From assembly GCF_000166295.1 (NCBI RefSeq), contig NC_017506.1, positions 1,550,001-1,614,000 of the forward strand: a stretch of 64,000 bases of DNA, read 5' to 3'. The DNA is from Marinobacter adhaerens HP15 (lineage in GTDB: Bacteria > Pseudomonadota > Gammaproteobacteria > Pseudomonadales > Oleiphilaceae). Positions 2,659 through 11,566 of this stretch are shown piece by piece (the stretch's first letter is position 1; each line of letters begins with the position of its first letter). The notes beneath the pieces are model-generated. The model was not told the origin of the DNA. It worked only from the letters and a program-made list of their open reading frames with translations, and made no database searches. A program made the position numbers and the translations under genes.

Positions 2659-3882
2659 ATGATCAGAATTTCATCACAGCAGATTTTTTCAGGCGGCATT
2701 AATCGGCTCCAGGAGCTCAATACCAGCCTGAATAACACCCAGCAACAGATCTCGACTGGCCAGAGGGTAAACAAACCTTCCGACGATCCGGTCGCTGCAG
2801 CGCGCATTCTGAAGCTGGATCAGGAGCTTTCGCGGGTTGAAACCTATCAGCGTAACGTCGACCTGGCGGACAACCGTCTGAAACAGGAAGAAAATGCTCT
2901 TTCAAGTTCGATCGATGTGATTCAGCGGATCCGGGAGCTGACGGTTCAGGCGGGTAATGGGTCATTGTCGGCCAACGACCGGCGGTCGATTTCTTCGGAG
3001 CTGGAGGAACGCCTGGGCCAGCTCGCCAATATTGCCAATACCCGTGATGCCTCTGGCGAATACATCTTTAGCGGATTCCAGGGCTCGGTAAAGGCTTTTG
3101 AGCAGGATCCCTCTGGCAGTTGGGTCTACCAGGGCGACGAGGGGCAGCGAGTCCTCGAAATCGATGATGGCGTCACCGTTCCGATCAGCGATAACGGCAA
3201 GGACATTTTCGTGAGGGTTCCTGCGGCCATCACCGGCGAACACAGCACGGTGAGCACGCCGGGCGCTTCTATTTCAGGCGTCAAGCTGGTTAACGAGGCA
3301 GATCTGGCTGCCGCCTACCCCAACTCATTCCCGGACGACATTACGGTTGAGGTTGATGCCGGTGGCAATATTATCGCTACGGACAGCCAGGGTGATGTGT
3401 TGACGGTGGATCCGGCAACCTATCAAAGTGGTGAGCCCTTTGAAGTTGCCGGTGTTGAAGTGACTCTGACAGATGCGGTTCCCGGTGCGGGGGATGTGTT
3501 TACGCTGAAGATCAATGAAAAACAGTCGGTGTTCGGCACCATTGAGAACCTGATTTCCGGTTTGAACAACATCGACAAGAGCAGTCCGGATGGGCAGTCC
3601 CAGTACGACGACCTGATTGCCAATTCCCTGATCAACCTCGATAACGCCCAGGAAAGCATTATCCTCAAGCAGACGGAGTTGGGAGGCCGGATGAACGCGG
3701 TGGAATCGACCAAGTCATTCCTGGAGGATTCGTCGGTCTACAGCAATGAAATACGGTCCCAGCTGCAGGATGTGGACTACGCAGAGGCCATCAGCACACT
3801 GAGTTTCCAGAGCTTCGTGTTGCAGGCGGCCCAGCAGTCGTTTGCCCAGGTTTCGCAGCTGTCACTGTTCGATCGATTGTAA
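2659..3882 (+). CDS. flgL: FlgL, flagellar hook-filament junction protein 3 (HAP3)
   Basis: This 407-residue flagellin-like protein starts MIRISSQQIFSGGINRLQEL and contains the conserved block STGQRVNKPSDDPVAAARI at about residues 33-51. It ends with the flagellin-type C-terminus AISTLSFQSFVLQAAQQSF and SQLSLFDRL. It forms the second junction zone, between FlgK and filament. It is about 90 residues longer than the E. coli protein; the extra sequence lies in the middle (about residues 160-290), which is predicted to be surface exposed. The start ATG follows GAGGTGATGTGAC, an adequate ribosome site. It is the last gene of the flagellar run visible here. Confidence 0.95.
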   Translation: MIRISSQQIFSGGINRLQELNTSLNNTQQQISTGQRVNKPSDDPVAAARILKLDQELSRVETYQRNVDLADNRLKQEENALSSSIDVIQRIRELTVQAGNGSLSANDRRSISSELEERLGQLANIANTRDASGEYIFSGFQGSVKAFEQDPSGSWVYQGDEGQRVLEIDDGVTVPISDNGKDIFVRVPAAITGEHSTVSTPGASISGVKLVNEADLAAAYPNSFPDDITVEVDAGGNIIATDSQGDVLTVDPATYQSGEPFEVAGVEVTLTDAVPGAGDVFTLKINEKQSVFGTIENLISGLNNIDKSSPDGQSQYDDLIANSLINLDNAQESIILKQTELGGRMNAVESTKSFLEDSSVYSNEIRSQLQDVDYAEAISTLSFQSFVLQAAQQSFAQVSQLSLFDRL

Positions 3883-6813: not shown

Positions 6814-8688
6814 ATGCTGAACAAGTATCCGCTTTGGAAAAACCTGGTTATCCTGGTCGCGCTCGTGATCGGGTTTATCTACGCTTTGCCCAACCTCTTC
6901 CCCGACGACTACGCCATCCAGATTACCGGCGCCCGCAGTAGCACCGAAGTGAATGCCGGTGTGCTCGACAGGGCCGTTGGTGTGCTGGAAAGCCGGGGCA
7001 TCGAGGTGAAAAGCAGTACTCTTCAGGATCGGGATGCTCTGATCCGTCTCACCAACTCTGAAGACCAATTGCAGGCCCGCCCCCTGGTGCAGGCTGCTCT
7101 TGGAAACGAATACCTGGTTGCACTGAACATGGCTGCCTCCACACCCGGTTGGCTAAAGAGCCTGGGTGCCGGCCCGATGAAGCTGGGTCTGGACCTTCGT
7201 GGCGGCGTCCACTTCCTGTTGGAAGTCGACATGGAAACCGCAGTCAGCCAGCGTCTGGATGCCATGTCTGGCCAGATCAAGCGAGAGCTGCGGGAAGAGC
7301 GGATCCGCTATCGTGGCGGAGATGTTCAGGATAACCGCGAGATCGTTCTCAGCTTTCGTGATGAAGCCTCCCGCACCGAAGCGTTCAACATGGTGCGTGA
7401 CCAGTACAACGAATTCCTTCTCGATGAGCAGACCGAGGGTGATGAATTCCTCCTTGTCCTGACGCTCTCCGAGGCTGAGGTCACTGCGATTCAGGACTAT
7501 GCTCTGGAGCAGAACCTCACAACGATCCGTAACCGGGTGAATGAGCTCGGTGTTGCTGAGCCCCTCGTTCAACAGCAGGGTGCCGACCGGATTATTGTTG
7601 AGTTGCCTGGCGTACAGGACACCGCACAGGCCAAGCGCGTACTTGGTGCAACCGCGAACCTTGAGTTCCGCATGGAGGCCCGCCAGGACGCCCCCAGCAG
7701 CGAGACCGAGGAGTTTGGTTTCCGGGATCAGCCACAGCGCACCGCGCGCCTCGAGCAGGAGGTGATCGCTACCGGTAACAACGTGGCCAATGCCCAGCAG
7801 GCGTTCGACGAAAACGGCCAACCCCAGGTTAATATCACCATGGATTCCGTCGGTGGCGACCTGATGAACCGGGCCACCCGCAATGCCATTGGCCGCAGGA
7901 TGGCCGTGCTGTTCATCGAGTACCGCACGGAAACCGAAACCAGAATGGTAGACGGCGAGCCTCAGGAGGTGGAGAACCGCGTTGTGGAGAAAGGCATTAT
8001 CAGCCTTGCCACAGTGCAATCCGCTCTGGGCAGCAGTTTCCGGATCACCGGGCTTGATTCTATTCCGGAAGCCGCAGAACTGGCGCTGCTCTTGCGCGCC
8101 GGTGCACTTGCCGCCCCGATGTACTTCGTTCAGGAGAGGACCATTGGTCCGAGCCTCGGCCAGAAAAATATAGACGCCGGCATGATGTCCGTTGCGCTTG
8201 GCTTCGGGCTGGTGCTGCTTTACATGCTTGTCTACTACCGTGGATTTGGCGTGGTAGCGAATATTGCGCTGACACTGAATCTGATGCTGCTCGTTGCGTG
8301 TATGTCGATCCTCTCGGCGACACTGACCCTGCCAGGCATCGCCGGTATCGTTCTGACCGTCGGTATGGCGGTGGATGCCAACGTGCTTATCTTTGAGAGG
8401 ATAAAGGAAGAGCTGAAATCGGGCGTGCCGCCCCAGACGGCCATCAACTCCGGTTATTCCCGGGCCTTTGTTTCCATCTTTGATGCAAACATCACCACAT
8501 TGCTGGTTGCCGTGATTCTTTTCGCGATGGGTTCCGGCCCCGTGAAAGGGTTTGCGGTGACACTCTGCATCGGGATTCTGACGTCGATGTTCTCTGGCCT
8601 GATGGTCAGCCGAAGCATCGTTAACATTGTTTACGGCGGCCGCAGGGTCGAGAAGCTGTCGATCGGAGGAAAGCTCGCTAATGTCTGA
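6814..8688 (+). CDS. secD: SecD, protein-export membrane protein
   Basis: SecD is an RND-type subunit that, with SecF, uses the proton gradient to pull secreted proteins out of the SecYEG channel. The 624 residues have an N-terminal span (NLVILVALVIGFIYALPNLF), the conserved GLDLRGGVHFLLEVDMETA, and a large periplasmic part. The C-terminal five-span domain contains VDANVLIFERIKEE and SGPVKGFAVTLCIG. The length matches E. coli SecD (615). The ATG is preceded by AAGGGA. The last codons overlap the secF start. Confidence 0.97.
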   Translation: MLNKYPLWKNLVILVALVIGFIYALPNLFPDDYAIQITGARSSTEVNAGVLDRAVGVLESRGIEVKSSTLQDRDALIRLTNSEDQLQARPLVQAALGNEYLVALNMAASTPGWLKSLGAGPMKLGLDLRGGVHFLLEVDMETAVSQRLDAMSGQIKRELREERIRYRGGDVQDNREIVLSFRDEASRTEAFNMVRDQYNEFLLDEQTEGDEFLLVLTLSEAEVTAIQDYALEQNLTTIRNRVNELGVAEPLVQQQGADRIIVELPGVQDTAQAKRVLGATANLEFRMEARQDAPSSETEEFGFRDQPQRTARLEQEVIATGNNVANAQQAFDENGQPQVNITMDSVGGDLMNRATRNAIGRRMAVLFIEYRTETETRMVDGEPQEVENRVVEKGIISLATVQSALGSSFRITGLDSIPEAAELALLLRAGALAAPMYFVQERTIGPSLGQKNIDAGMMSVALGFGLVLLYMLVYYRGFGVVANIALTLNLMLLVACMSILSATLTLPGIAGIVLTVGMAVDANVLIFERIKEELKSGVPPQTAINSGYSRAFVSIFDANITTLLVAVILFAMGSGPVKGFAVTLCIGILTSMFSGLMVSRSIVNIVYGGRRVEKLSIGGKLANV

Positions 8689-9634
8689 AGATCAAAAGCA
8701 ACCGTTTGATTTCATGGGGTTACGGAAGATTGCTTCCATAATCTCCATTTCACTGATCGTGGTGTCCATTGCGCTGCTCGCAACACGCGGCCTGAATTTC
8801 GGGATGGACTTCACCGGCGGCACCTCCGTTGAATTTGAATACGCAGAGGCTCCGCAACTTGATGAAATCCGCTCCAGGCTGACAGAGGCCGGGTACGAGC
8901 AGTTTTCTGTTCAGAACTTCGGGGCTGACACGACGGTGTTGGTGCGGATGGCCGAGGCCGACAACGATCAGCTGGCACCGGAGGTTACCCGAACCTTGAA
9001 AGAGGGTGGTGCAGATCTTGAACTGGTCAGTTCCGAGTTCGTAGGGTCCCAGGTTGGTGAAGAGCTCAAGGAAGACAGTGGCCTTGGCTTGCTAATCGCC
9101 CTTGCCGTGGTGCTGATTTACGTGGGTATGCGCTTCCAGTTCAAATTCGGTATTGCCTCGGTGGTGCCTCTGGCTCACGACGTCATTATCGTTCTGGGTG
9201 TATTTGCGTTATTCCAGTGGACCTTCGATCTTACCGTTCTGGCTGCGTTGCTTGCGGTCATTGGTTATTCTTTGAACGATACCATCGTTGTGGCTGACCG
9301 CATCCGGGAGAACTTCCGCAAAATGCGTGTGGGTGAGCCCTGGGATATCATCAACGAATCCATTCACCAGACCATTGCGCGGACAATCAACACCTCGGGT
9401 ACGACGCTCGTGGTCTTGCTTGCTCTCTACTTTCTGGGTGGTGAGGCAATCAACAACTTCGCCCTGGCTTTGATTATTGGTGTGGTCGTCGGTACCTACT
9501 CTTCCATATACGTGTCTGCGAATCTGCTGATGGTGATGGGCGTTTCTCGAGATGACCTGATCGTGCCGGCAAAGGAAGGCGCGGAAAATGCCGAAGAAGA
9601 AGAGCAGCCGCCGGAGTGGCTGAACCGGATGTAA
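8681..9634 (+). CDS. secF: SecF, protein-export membrane protein
   Basis: SecF is the partner of SecD in the proton-driven late step of protein export. The 317 residues start MSEDQKQPFDFMGLRKIASI and have the signature LNFGMDFTGGTSVEFEY, VEVEL-type periplasmic beta elements, and the membrane motif GYSLNDTIVVADRIRENFRK. The start is the ATG at 8681, overlapping the secD end, with GGAGG 11 bases upstream; the longer frame from 8627 lies inside secD and is not used. The tail is acidic (NAEEEEQPPEW). Confidence 0.97.
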   Translation: MSEDQKQPFDFMGLRKIASIISISLIVVSIALLATRGLNFGMDFTGGTSVEFEYAEAPQLDEIRSRLTEAGYEQFSVQNFGADTTVLVRMAEADNDQLAPEVTRTLKEGGADLELVSSEFVGSQVGEELKEDSGLGLLIALAVVLIYVGMRFQFKFGIASVVPLAHDVIIVLGVFALFQWTFDLTVLAALLAVIGYSLNDTIVVADRIRENFRKMRVGEPWDIINESIHQTIARTINTSGTTLVVLLALYFLGGEAINNFALALIIGVVVGTYSSIYVSANLLMVMGVSRDDLIVPAKEGAENAEEEEQPPEWLNRM

Positions 9635-9661: not shown

Positions 9662-9699
9662 CAAAAAAAACCGCCACATAATGTGGCGGTTTTTTTTGT
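9662..9699 (+). terminator. Bidirectional rho-independent terminator between secF and the suhB-like gene
   Basis: Eight As, then CCGCCACAT-AATGTGGCGG, then eight Ts make a near-perfect hairpin with T-runs on both strands. It can end secF transcripts and the convergent minus-strand suhB-like transcript. Confidence 0.95.
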
Positions 9700-9719: not shown

Positions 9720-10531
9720 TCAGCGAGGCAGACGGCCCCGGAACGGATGCAGGACCTTGAGCACTTCGCGGAACAGCTTCGGGTTTGCAACCACCAGCTG
9801 GCGGGCGTTCCCGGTGGACGGATTGCCCGAGAAATCACCGGTCAGGGCACCGGATTCCATGGCTAGTGTGACGCCAAGATCCAGTTCTGCCGCTTCTGGA
9901 CGAAAGATGATGGCTGCGTCCATCAATCCGGCGGACACACGGGCGATATCCAGCACCACGCAGCCGGAGGTGCGGAACATACCGGAATCCCTGGCCAGTA
10001 CAGCGGCCATTTCGCCCCAGAGCATCGGATCCTCGCTCTTTCGAGCCTGGTCCAGCAGGTTGGTAGCGATGGCGGCTTTCTCCGGCAGCTTGATTTCCGA
10101 AGCGCGCACGCGGCGGCTGTTGAGCGCCGCACCATGGCCTCGGCTGGCCGAGTATTCCTCTCCGGTAACGGGGTTAACCAGCAGCAGGTTTTCAGTTCGG
10201 TTATTCTTTTCTGGGACAGGGCCAGAGCGAACTCCGGAATGCCCCGAAGGAAATTTTCACGGCCCAGGACAGGGAAAATGTGCCAGCTCTTTTCGCTGGT
10301 TCCGGCATCCGCTTCGTTCAGGGCCGCGATGCTGTGGTCCTTGTAGGCTTTTTCGAGCTGTTCGGCAAAATTGTCATAAATAGATTGCTCAACCCGTTCC
10401 AGCTGACGACGGCGTTCTGAGTCGTCCTTGCCGGTAGGTTCCTGGCGCTCGAAATGGGCTTTCAGATAATCAGACCCCTGACGCGCGACGCGCAGGGCCA
10501 TTTTAATAGCTGGTTGCATCTGAGTGTTCAT
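9720..10531 (-). pseudogene. suhB: SuhB-like inositol-phosphatase-fold protein, metal site lost, one frameshift
   Basis: The gene sits where Pseudomonas has suhB, between secF and trmJ. Read from an ATG at 10531 (MNTQMQPAIKMALRVARQGS), it stays in frame to about 10195, then continues in another frame (NLLLVNPVTGEEYSASRGHG, later SGALTGDFSG) to the stop at 9720. Restoring one base gives about 270 residues, normal for SuhB. The fold is recognisable, but the metal-binding signature normally reading IDPLDGTTNF is IFPVLGRENF, so both Asp ligands are gone. The EE and WD ligand positions are also changed. Catalysis is therefore unlikely. In E. coli SuhB also acts as a Nus factor in rRNA antitermination, a role that could survive without catalysis (inference). 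The frameshift may be real or a sequencing error. Confidence 0.8.
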
Positions 10532-10702
10532 TATCCGGGTGTGTGAAGGCCGGGTATCATAGCAAAAGATCACCCCGCTTGTATGTTTTTTGACTCAGCA
10601 ATAGCACGGATAACCAGAGGTTACGGGTACTCCGGAGGGGCAGGGTGCCTTTGCTTTCTGCTATCATTGCCGCCCTGATCAATAACCTTGGGCCTGCTAA
10701 CA

Positions 10703-11566
10703 ATGCATAAAAGCGCACTTCCACAGGAAGGGACGGAAACATTCCAGGATCAGATCCGGATCGTTCTGGTTGAGACATCCCATTCAGGCAATATCGGCGC
10801 AGTCGCCCGTGCCATGAAAAATATGGGGCTCGGCAACCTGTGGCTGGTCAACCCGTCTTCGTTTCCGGACGAGGCTTCATACGCCCGTGCGGCGGGGGCT
10901 TCAGATGTGCTTGATAGCGCCCACGTGGTGTCTTCGCTCGATGAGGCGCTTGCCGACTGCGTTCTGGTAATGGGTACCAGTGCCCGGGGCAGAAAAGTCC
11001 CCTGGCCGGTGTGCGCCCCGCCCGAGGCTGCGGCCGCGGCCGCAGAGCACGCCGGCAGTGGCCCGGTGGCCATGGTGTTCGGCAGGGAGAACCATGGTCT
11101 CAGCAACGATGAGCTGCAGCGTTGTCATTATCATATTCATATTCCCTCCAATCCCGATTACAGCTCTCTCAACCTGGCCATGGCGGTGCAGGTCATGTGC
11201 TATGAATTGCGGATGTATTACCTCCGAAGCCTTGAAGGCGGTGAGGGAAGCCCATACTTAAAGTCGATGACCCGGCCCGGGGACGAAGGATGGGATGTGC
11301 CGCCGGCGAAAGTCCACGATGTTGAGGGCTTCTTCGGTCATCTTGAGCAGGTGCTTATCGATGTTGATTTCCATCGGCGGGAGAACCCCAGGCAGCTTAT
11401 GACGCGCTTGCGGCGTCTGTTCCAGCGAGCCAGACTTGATCAGATGGAGATCAATATCCTCCGGGGCATCCTCACTGCTGTGCAGAAAGCGGCGGGCACA
11501 CGGAACAACAGCAAATCAACCGAGGCCGATACTGCGGCGACGGAACAGGACAATGGCCATGTTTGA
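10703..11566 (+). CDS. trmJ: TrmJ, tRNA (cytidine/uridine-2'-O-)-methyltransferase
   Basis: This SPOUT-class methyltransferase modifies ribose 32 in the anticodon loop of several tRNAs. The 287 residues contain [37 protein letters not shown] and the trefoil-knot SAM motif [19 protein letters not shown], followed by a C-terminal extension with [12 protein letters not shown] and INILRGIL. I chose the ATG at 10703; an upstream in-frame TTG at 10688 would add five residues. The last bases overlap cysE. The gene is divergent from the suhB-like gene. Confidence 0.95.

Follow-up and report, generated by a model that had tools for sequence, protein, structure and literature searches.

A suhB orthologue without the metal ligands of inositol monophosphatase in Marinobacter adhaerens HP15 and related Pseudomonadales, a probable Nus factor

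The suhB locus and its reading frame

The window, i.e. the whole stretch of 64,000 nucleotides of the Marinobacter adhaerens HP15 genome that was analysed, carries a suhB-like gene flanked by trmJ and secF. The features of this locus, in window positions unless otherwise stated, are as follows.

9720..10531, minus strand: suhB orthologue that has lost its phosphatase site; in the assembly, the frame breaks near 10207
10531 (MNTQM) or 10519 (MQPAIK), minus strand: candidate starts of suhB
10307..10321, minus strand: LNEAD, aligned to the E67-E68 metal-ligand motif (by codon counting from 10519)
10253..10276, minus strand: FPVLGREN, aligned to DPLDGTTN with D84, D87 and T89 (by codon counting)
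9885..9890, minus strand: Ala-Glu, aligned to W211-D212 (by codon counting from the stop at 9720)
9759..9770, minus strand: R-E-V-L, aligned to E. coli K251-L254, the NusA-AR2 site, kept as Arg and Leu (by codon counting)
10703..11566, plus strand: trmJ, diverging from suhB as it does in E. coli (TIGR00050 match at G000:C1:1560751-1561488 of the HP15 genome)
8684..9634, plus strand: secF, convergent neighbour, preceded by secD

The divergent trmJ/suhB arrangement is that of E. coli, and secD, secF and suhB were found together in 40 of 40 regions of the family of Marinobacter and its kin (called f1 here). In the assembled sequence, a frameshift divides a single SuhB-like protein, whose N-terminal part is in the frame of ORF 9923-10573 and whose C-terminal part corresponds to ORF 9720-10109. 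The intact copy of a close relative, genome G009, matches PF00459 with 58.5 bits (cut-off 27), and Marinobacter SuhB, at 92.6 bits, misses the cut-off of 332 of the NCBIfam equivalog PRK10757. In a quick tree, rooted on the long CysQ branch and carrying a long-branch warning at that root, E. coli SuhB groups in one clade (SH-aLRT 98) with the SuhBs of the order, both those with intact ligand sets and those without, which we call degenerate; the branch of this species is represented there by other f1 rows, including that of G009 (L100). By locus and tree, the gene at 9720-10531 is the suhB orthologue, as the sequence-only reading had proposed from its position and overall sequence.

The frame break near 10207 is a single indel, probably resulting from an assembly or sequencing error or from a polymorphism. 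The G009 protein, with 99% identity over the last 129 residues of the window protein, has an open frame of 266 aa and identical motifs, and the near relatives of G009 (98-100% identical to it) show the same motifs in open frames. Alignment of 19 kb to G009 (98.1% identical) revealed that the only net frame-shifting indel within suhB or secF is the one near 10207. Two further indels are intergenic, one pair in secF cancels out, and several clustered at 3355-3382 add up to 15 bases. Furthermore, the database protein P0092 (186 aa, on a 1,679-base contig) has the same private Ala before LNEAD as HP15 and is open across the break point. The break is thus likely technical, given the open frames of G009, its relatives and P0092, and the motif changes are not sequencing noise, since the open-frame relatives carry identical motifs.

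Between the convergent secF and suhB genes, an inverted repeat, ACCGCCACAT / ATGTGGCGGT, with flanking A and T runs at 9663-9697 looks like a bidirectional terminator.

Metal ligands in Marinobacter and other Pseudomonadales

The ligand set of active inositol monophosphatases, E67/D84/D87/D212 in E. coli SuhB numbering, is absent from HP15 SuhB, in which all four ligands are replaced. The motifs picked out from the sequence alone are borne out: LNEAD, FPVLGREN and Ala-Glu (within EAAEL) lie at E67, D84-N91 and W211-D212, respectively, and recur in the open-frame copies of G009 and its relatives. The accompanying statement that all metal-binding motifs are lost holds for HP15 but is too broad for its relatives. 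Full frames were read in 88 distinct f1 genomes from 13 genera (the broken HP15 copy being excluded); E67, D84 and D87 are kept in none of them, and position 212 is Asp in 57 and Glu in 28. Sister strains with intact ligands, which had been named as a sign of simple decay, were thus not encountered in this set. In f1 searches, 161 of 163 genomes gave a best match at E <= 2.5e-35; the two others, G134 and G073, gave weak matches only, and their assemblies are incomplete.

To sample the order independently of SuhB, we used TrmJ as the anchor for finding loci in 136 genomes. We took 90 TrmJ loci, 77 of which have a SuhB-like frame and 76 a sufficiently long one (13 without a SuhB match and one short row were dropped). 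All 54 loci from 29 families have E-D-D-D at the four ligand positions, a set present in 0 of 22 loci from seven families and 0 of 40 f1 loci. None of the families examined mixes intact and degenerate SuhB. The degenerate families are eight in number, namely Marinobacter and its kin, Halomonadaceae, Marinomonas and five more. Names were taken from database proteins (genus g1 of f1, Marinobacter; f36, Halomonadaceae; f26, Marinomonas), and f38 can be named no more closely than as a neighbour of Thalassolituus (its second IMPase, described below, at 68%). That HP15 might be a lone oddity was rejected, as the loss is found in 88 of 88 f1 genomes and in seven further families.

Database proteins with a length of 240 aa or more gave the same picture. 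E-D-D-D is kept in 0 of 117 Marinobacter-type proteins (from the best 120 of 144 matches), 0 of 112 Halomonadaceae-type proteins (from the best 120 of 128) and 0 of 51 Marinomonas-type proteins; shorter proteins were dropped, 3 of 120, 8 of 120 and 3 of 54, respectively. The substitutes at the ligand positions differ among the three groups. In Marinobacter, residue 84 is Phe and residue 87 mostly Leu, with Asp at 212 in 98 of the 117 proteins from the best 120 of 144. The Halomonadaceae-type positions read R-E-H-D in 109 of 112 proteins, and Asp occupies position 212 in 111 of them (from the best 120 of 128); those of the Marinomonas type read R-D-Q-E in 49 of 51. Residual metal binding is conceivable, judging from the Asp at 212 in many rows and from a Glu aligned at 67 in 2 of 117 Marinobacter-type proteins (from the best 120 of 144).

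In the Halomonadaceae-type set (P0121-P0240), the T89 position beside R-E-H-D is Tyr in 103 of 112 proteins from the best 120 of 128. So constant a pocket is unusual and could bind something.

A contig search gave 588 matches. Among the best 80, the first 12 belong to Marinobacter (two), Halomonas (four), Vreelandella, Thalassolituus, a Saccharospirillaceae bacterium and three MAGs, one of them labelled Sporobacter, after which similarity falls to general IMPases.

To follow the history of the loss, we used trees of SuhB and RpoB; for the former, as for the site counts below, the f1 rows were thinned from 40 to 18. With the motif columns removed, the 40 degenerate rows of the SuhB tree form one clade (SH-aLRT 99); this is a quick tree without bootstrap, with a warning of long branches meeting inside the degenerate group. 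An RpoB tree covering 28 of 30 genomes (15 belonging to degenerate families) needs three changes of the label and is compatible with a single clade (p-AU 0.499); the degenerate families cluster in it, with none of 500 shuffles giving as low a number. A single loss, the simplest history, is therefore favoured by the SuhB tree, and one to three losses are compatible with the RpoB tree. Two loci of family f37, L109 (G198) and L156 (G228), have the partial ligand sets E-S-D-E and A-N-D-D and no high-similarity second IMPase; these sets look like a stage on the way to loss.

Selection, Nus-factor sites and the second IMPase

The degenerate suhB is under strong purifying selection rather than in decay, as judged from substitution rates. 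Its median dN/dS is 0.058 (interquartile 0.028-0.127) over 246 of 1953 pairs from 63 Marinobacter genomes. On 156 shared pairs, the medians are 0.040 for suhB, 0.056 for secF and 0.051 for trmJ, so that the relaxed selection put forward beforehand as a second sign of decay is not seen; on its own 72 pairs, trmJ has a lower median of 0.035. In the 37 codons of the former active-site loops, pN/pS is 0.138 versus 0.145 for the rest of suhB. The low dN/dS, these loops included, argues against decay, and, as the loops are as constrained as the remainder, their new sequence seems to matter in its own right.

E. coli SuhB is both a Nus factor and an inositol-1-monophosphatase. PMC6614801 maps K251/L254 by experiment as its binding site for NusA AR2, and changes at this pair lower the affinity for AR2 more than thousandfold. 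PMC6614801 and PMC4807359 describe suhB function in E. coli as independent of IMPase activity, and PMC4807359 leaves a link between SuhB enzyme activity and the rRNA role possible.

Using fixed thresholds, we contrasted three sets of rows, 55 of intact SuhB, 40 of degenerate SuhB and 21 of the second IMPase, the last serving as a control presumed to be selected for catalysis only. Sixteen sites are common to intact SuhB and the second IMPase and gone from degenerate SuhB: K34, V40, D44, E67, E68, D84, D87, T89, I103, G156, P158, R184, A188, E205, W211 and A214. We take these to be mostly active-site or catalytic residues. Both kinds of SuhB, unlike the second IMPase, keep nine sites: P3, E112, E124 (Leu in E. 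coli), R139, R141, A197, K248, K251 and L254. They make up a candidate Nus signature, to be read with the reservation that the alignment of the second IMPase is probably less sure in its C-terminal columns than elsewhere. The chance of finding both AR2 residues among nine of 267 positions is about 0.001 (72/71022), with thresholds of our own choosing. All 40 degenerate rows have Lys or Arg at K251. At L254, 37 of them have Leu, Val, Ile or Met and three have Ser or Ala; Halomonadaceae-type proteins have mostly Val or Ile there (from the best 120 of 128). The AR2 contact may be confined to some proteobacteria, as K251 is Lys in only 5 of 61 more distant intact SuhB matches.

R184 is kept in 0 of 40 degenerate rows. 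In E. coli, this residue is said to have been tied by Wang in 2007 to RNA polymerase binding and complementation, and it presumably forms the core of the SuhB dimer. Its disappearance from all 40 rows counts against a retained Nus role; the dimer of degenerate SuhB may be built differently.

The partners expected of a Nus factor are present. NusA with AR2, 46-63% identical to that of E. coli, was found in 30 of 30 genomes (17 of families with dead SuhB and 13 others). In HP15, an exact boxA follows the 16S gene by about 490 bases, presumably in the spacer, in three of three rrn operons. A leader boxA with two mismatches, CGCTCTTTAAAA, lies about 140 bases before 16S in all three operons (L275-L277).

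Besides SuhB, the HP15 genome encodes two PF00459 proteins. One is CysQ-like; the other, encoded outside the window, is a second IMPase with catalytic residues:

G000:C1:3430905-3431726: second IMPase (L001), with EE, DPIDGTVN and WD kept

L001 has the same PF00459 fold as HP15 SuhB and differs from it in keeping this catalytic set, in missing the SuhB-only sites and in belonging to a separate clade, outside that of SuhB in the quick tree. The sequence-only reading had envisaged a canonical suhB at another place in the genome. There is indeed a canonical IMPase, at C1:3430905, but its placement outside the SuhB clade means that it is not a second suhB. For the same reason, and bearing in mind the long-branch warning at the CysQ root, we rejected its being a recent suhB duplicate.

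Within the order sample, 28 of the 34 genomes from the eight degenerate families have the second IMPase at E <= 1.7e-68, as against 0 of the 102 remaining genomes, in a search that reached matches at 1e-40 or stronger. In f1 outside Marinobacter, 30 of 32 genomes have it at E <= 2.1e-90. A strict dependence of the loss on this enzyme was rejected, as a high-similarity copy is absent from 6 of those 34 and 2 of those 32 genomes. Among 16 weaker matches, 13 lie within 300 bases of trmJ and are suhB itself, that of G258 is about 3.3 kb away, and the remaining two are those of G252 and G270. One of the 21 second IMPases, L259, has lost the first Asp of DPIDGT. L001 adjoins an aminotransferase gene and a TetR-like gene, which are also its neighbours in two of two further Marinobacter loci and in 0 of 18 loci of other families.

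Separation of function and alternative readings

Marinobacter SuhB shares with E. coli SuhB the trmJ locus, PF00459, the K251/L254 site, R139, R141 and E222, and differs from it by the loss of E67, D84, D87, D44, T89 and R184. The best PDB match to the Marinobacter protein is 8wdq / 9j90 (residues 4-264, 115 bits), named 'Nus factor SuhB' by the depositors, which keeps DPLDGTTN, EE and WD, unlike the Marinobacter protein. PDB entries 6ib7, 6ib8, 6tqn and 6tqo we take, partly from PMC6614801, to be E. coli SuhB. We found no report of a catalytically dead natural SuhB among the matches listed for titles and abstracts of open-licence PMC papers. The finding is a variant of a known factor and not a new system.

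We consider it likely that this is a natural separation of function, the degenerate SuhB having been kept as a metal-free Nus factor. The initial proposal of a lineage that dropped the phosphatase site and kept suhB beside trmJ gains support from the ligand positions of the 88 f1 genomes, the strong selection and the placement of the orthologue in the SuhB clade. In one or a few events, an ancestor of several families of Pseudomonadales would have lost the Mg-binding and catalytic residues, with the fold, the NusA-AR2 contact site and the small set of SuhB-only residues preserved by strong purifying selection. Presumably devoid of activity, the degenerate protein would, in the manner of E. coli SuhB, bind NusA AR2 and the leader RNA with its boxA, help NusB/NusE to dock, and suppress termination without metal or catalysis; this Nus role is suggested by residue conservation and by analogy with the E. 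coli work. The second, catalytic IMPase present in most of these genomes could cover any phosphatase need. That one or few ancient steps left SuhB as a Nus factor only in a large branch of the Pseudomonadales, with a separate IMPase taking over the enzyme role in most members, seems to us reasonably probable. A branch whose SuhB has no active site and is yet strongly selected would give an evolutionary answer on the part of enzyme activity in the rRNA role. It also offers ready-made test proteins from the cultured genera Marinobacter, Halomonas and Marinomonas, and the nine-residue signature is directly testable in E. coli.

A repurposed pocket is an unlikely competitor. The protein would then act, without catalysis, as a sensor or scaffold for some new ligand or partner, its Nus role being secondary or gone. 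The constraint on the former active-site loops, equal to that on the rest of suhB, their fixation in lineage-specific forms (Phe with mostly Leu; R-E-H-D; R-D-Q-E) and the disappearance of R184 from 40 of 40 degenerate rows are consistent with such a change. Nevertheless, the published NusA-AR2 contact is among the sites kept across the eight families, and the new loops vary between families.

We regard it as very improbable that SuhB is still an enzyme relying on altered metal ligands, with shifted chemistry or substrate. The Asp at 212 in 57 of 88 f1 genomes and in 111 of 112 Halomonadaceae-type proteins, the latter with Glu and His at 84 and 87 (from the best 120 of 128), would fit such an enzyme. 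Against it, no more than 10% of the 40 degenerate rows keep any given one of K34, D44, E67, E68 and T89, only 23% keep D84 and 20% D87, and Marinobacter has Phe and mostly Leu at 84 and 87.

A decaying pseudogene in HP15, for which the broken frame near 10207 speaks, is the least credible reading and was rejected on account of the open 266-aa frames of G009 (98% DNA identity) and its relatives, the low dN/dS that betrays strong purifying selection, the single indel and the open frame of P0092 with its private Ala.

At least 280 database proteins (117, 112 and 51 of the three types, among the matches listed) have no full ligand set. Those with a source name are annotated as inositol monophosphatase, myo-inositol-1(or 4)-monophosphatase or similar.
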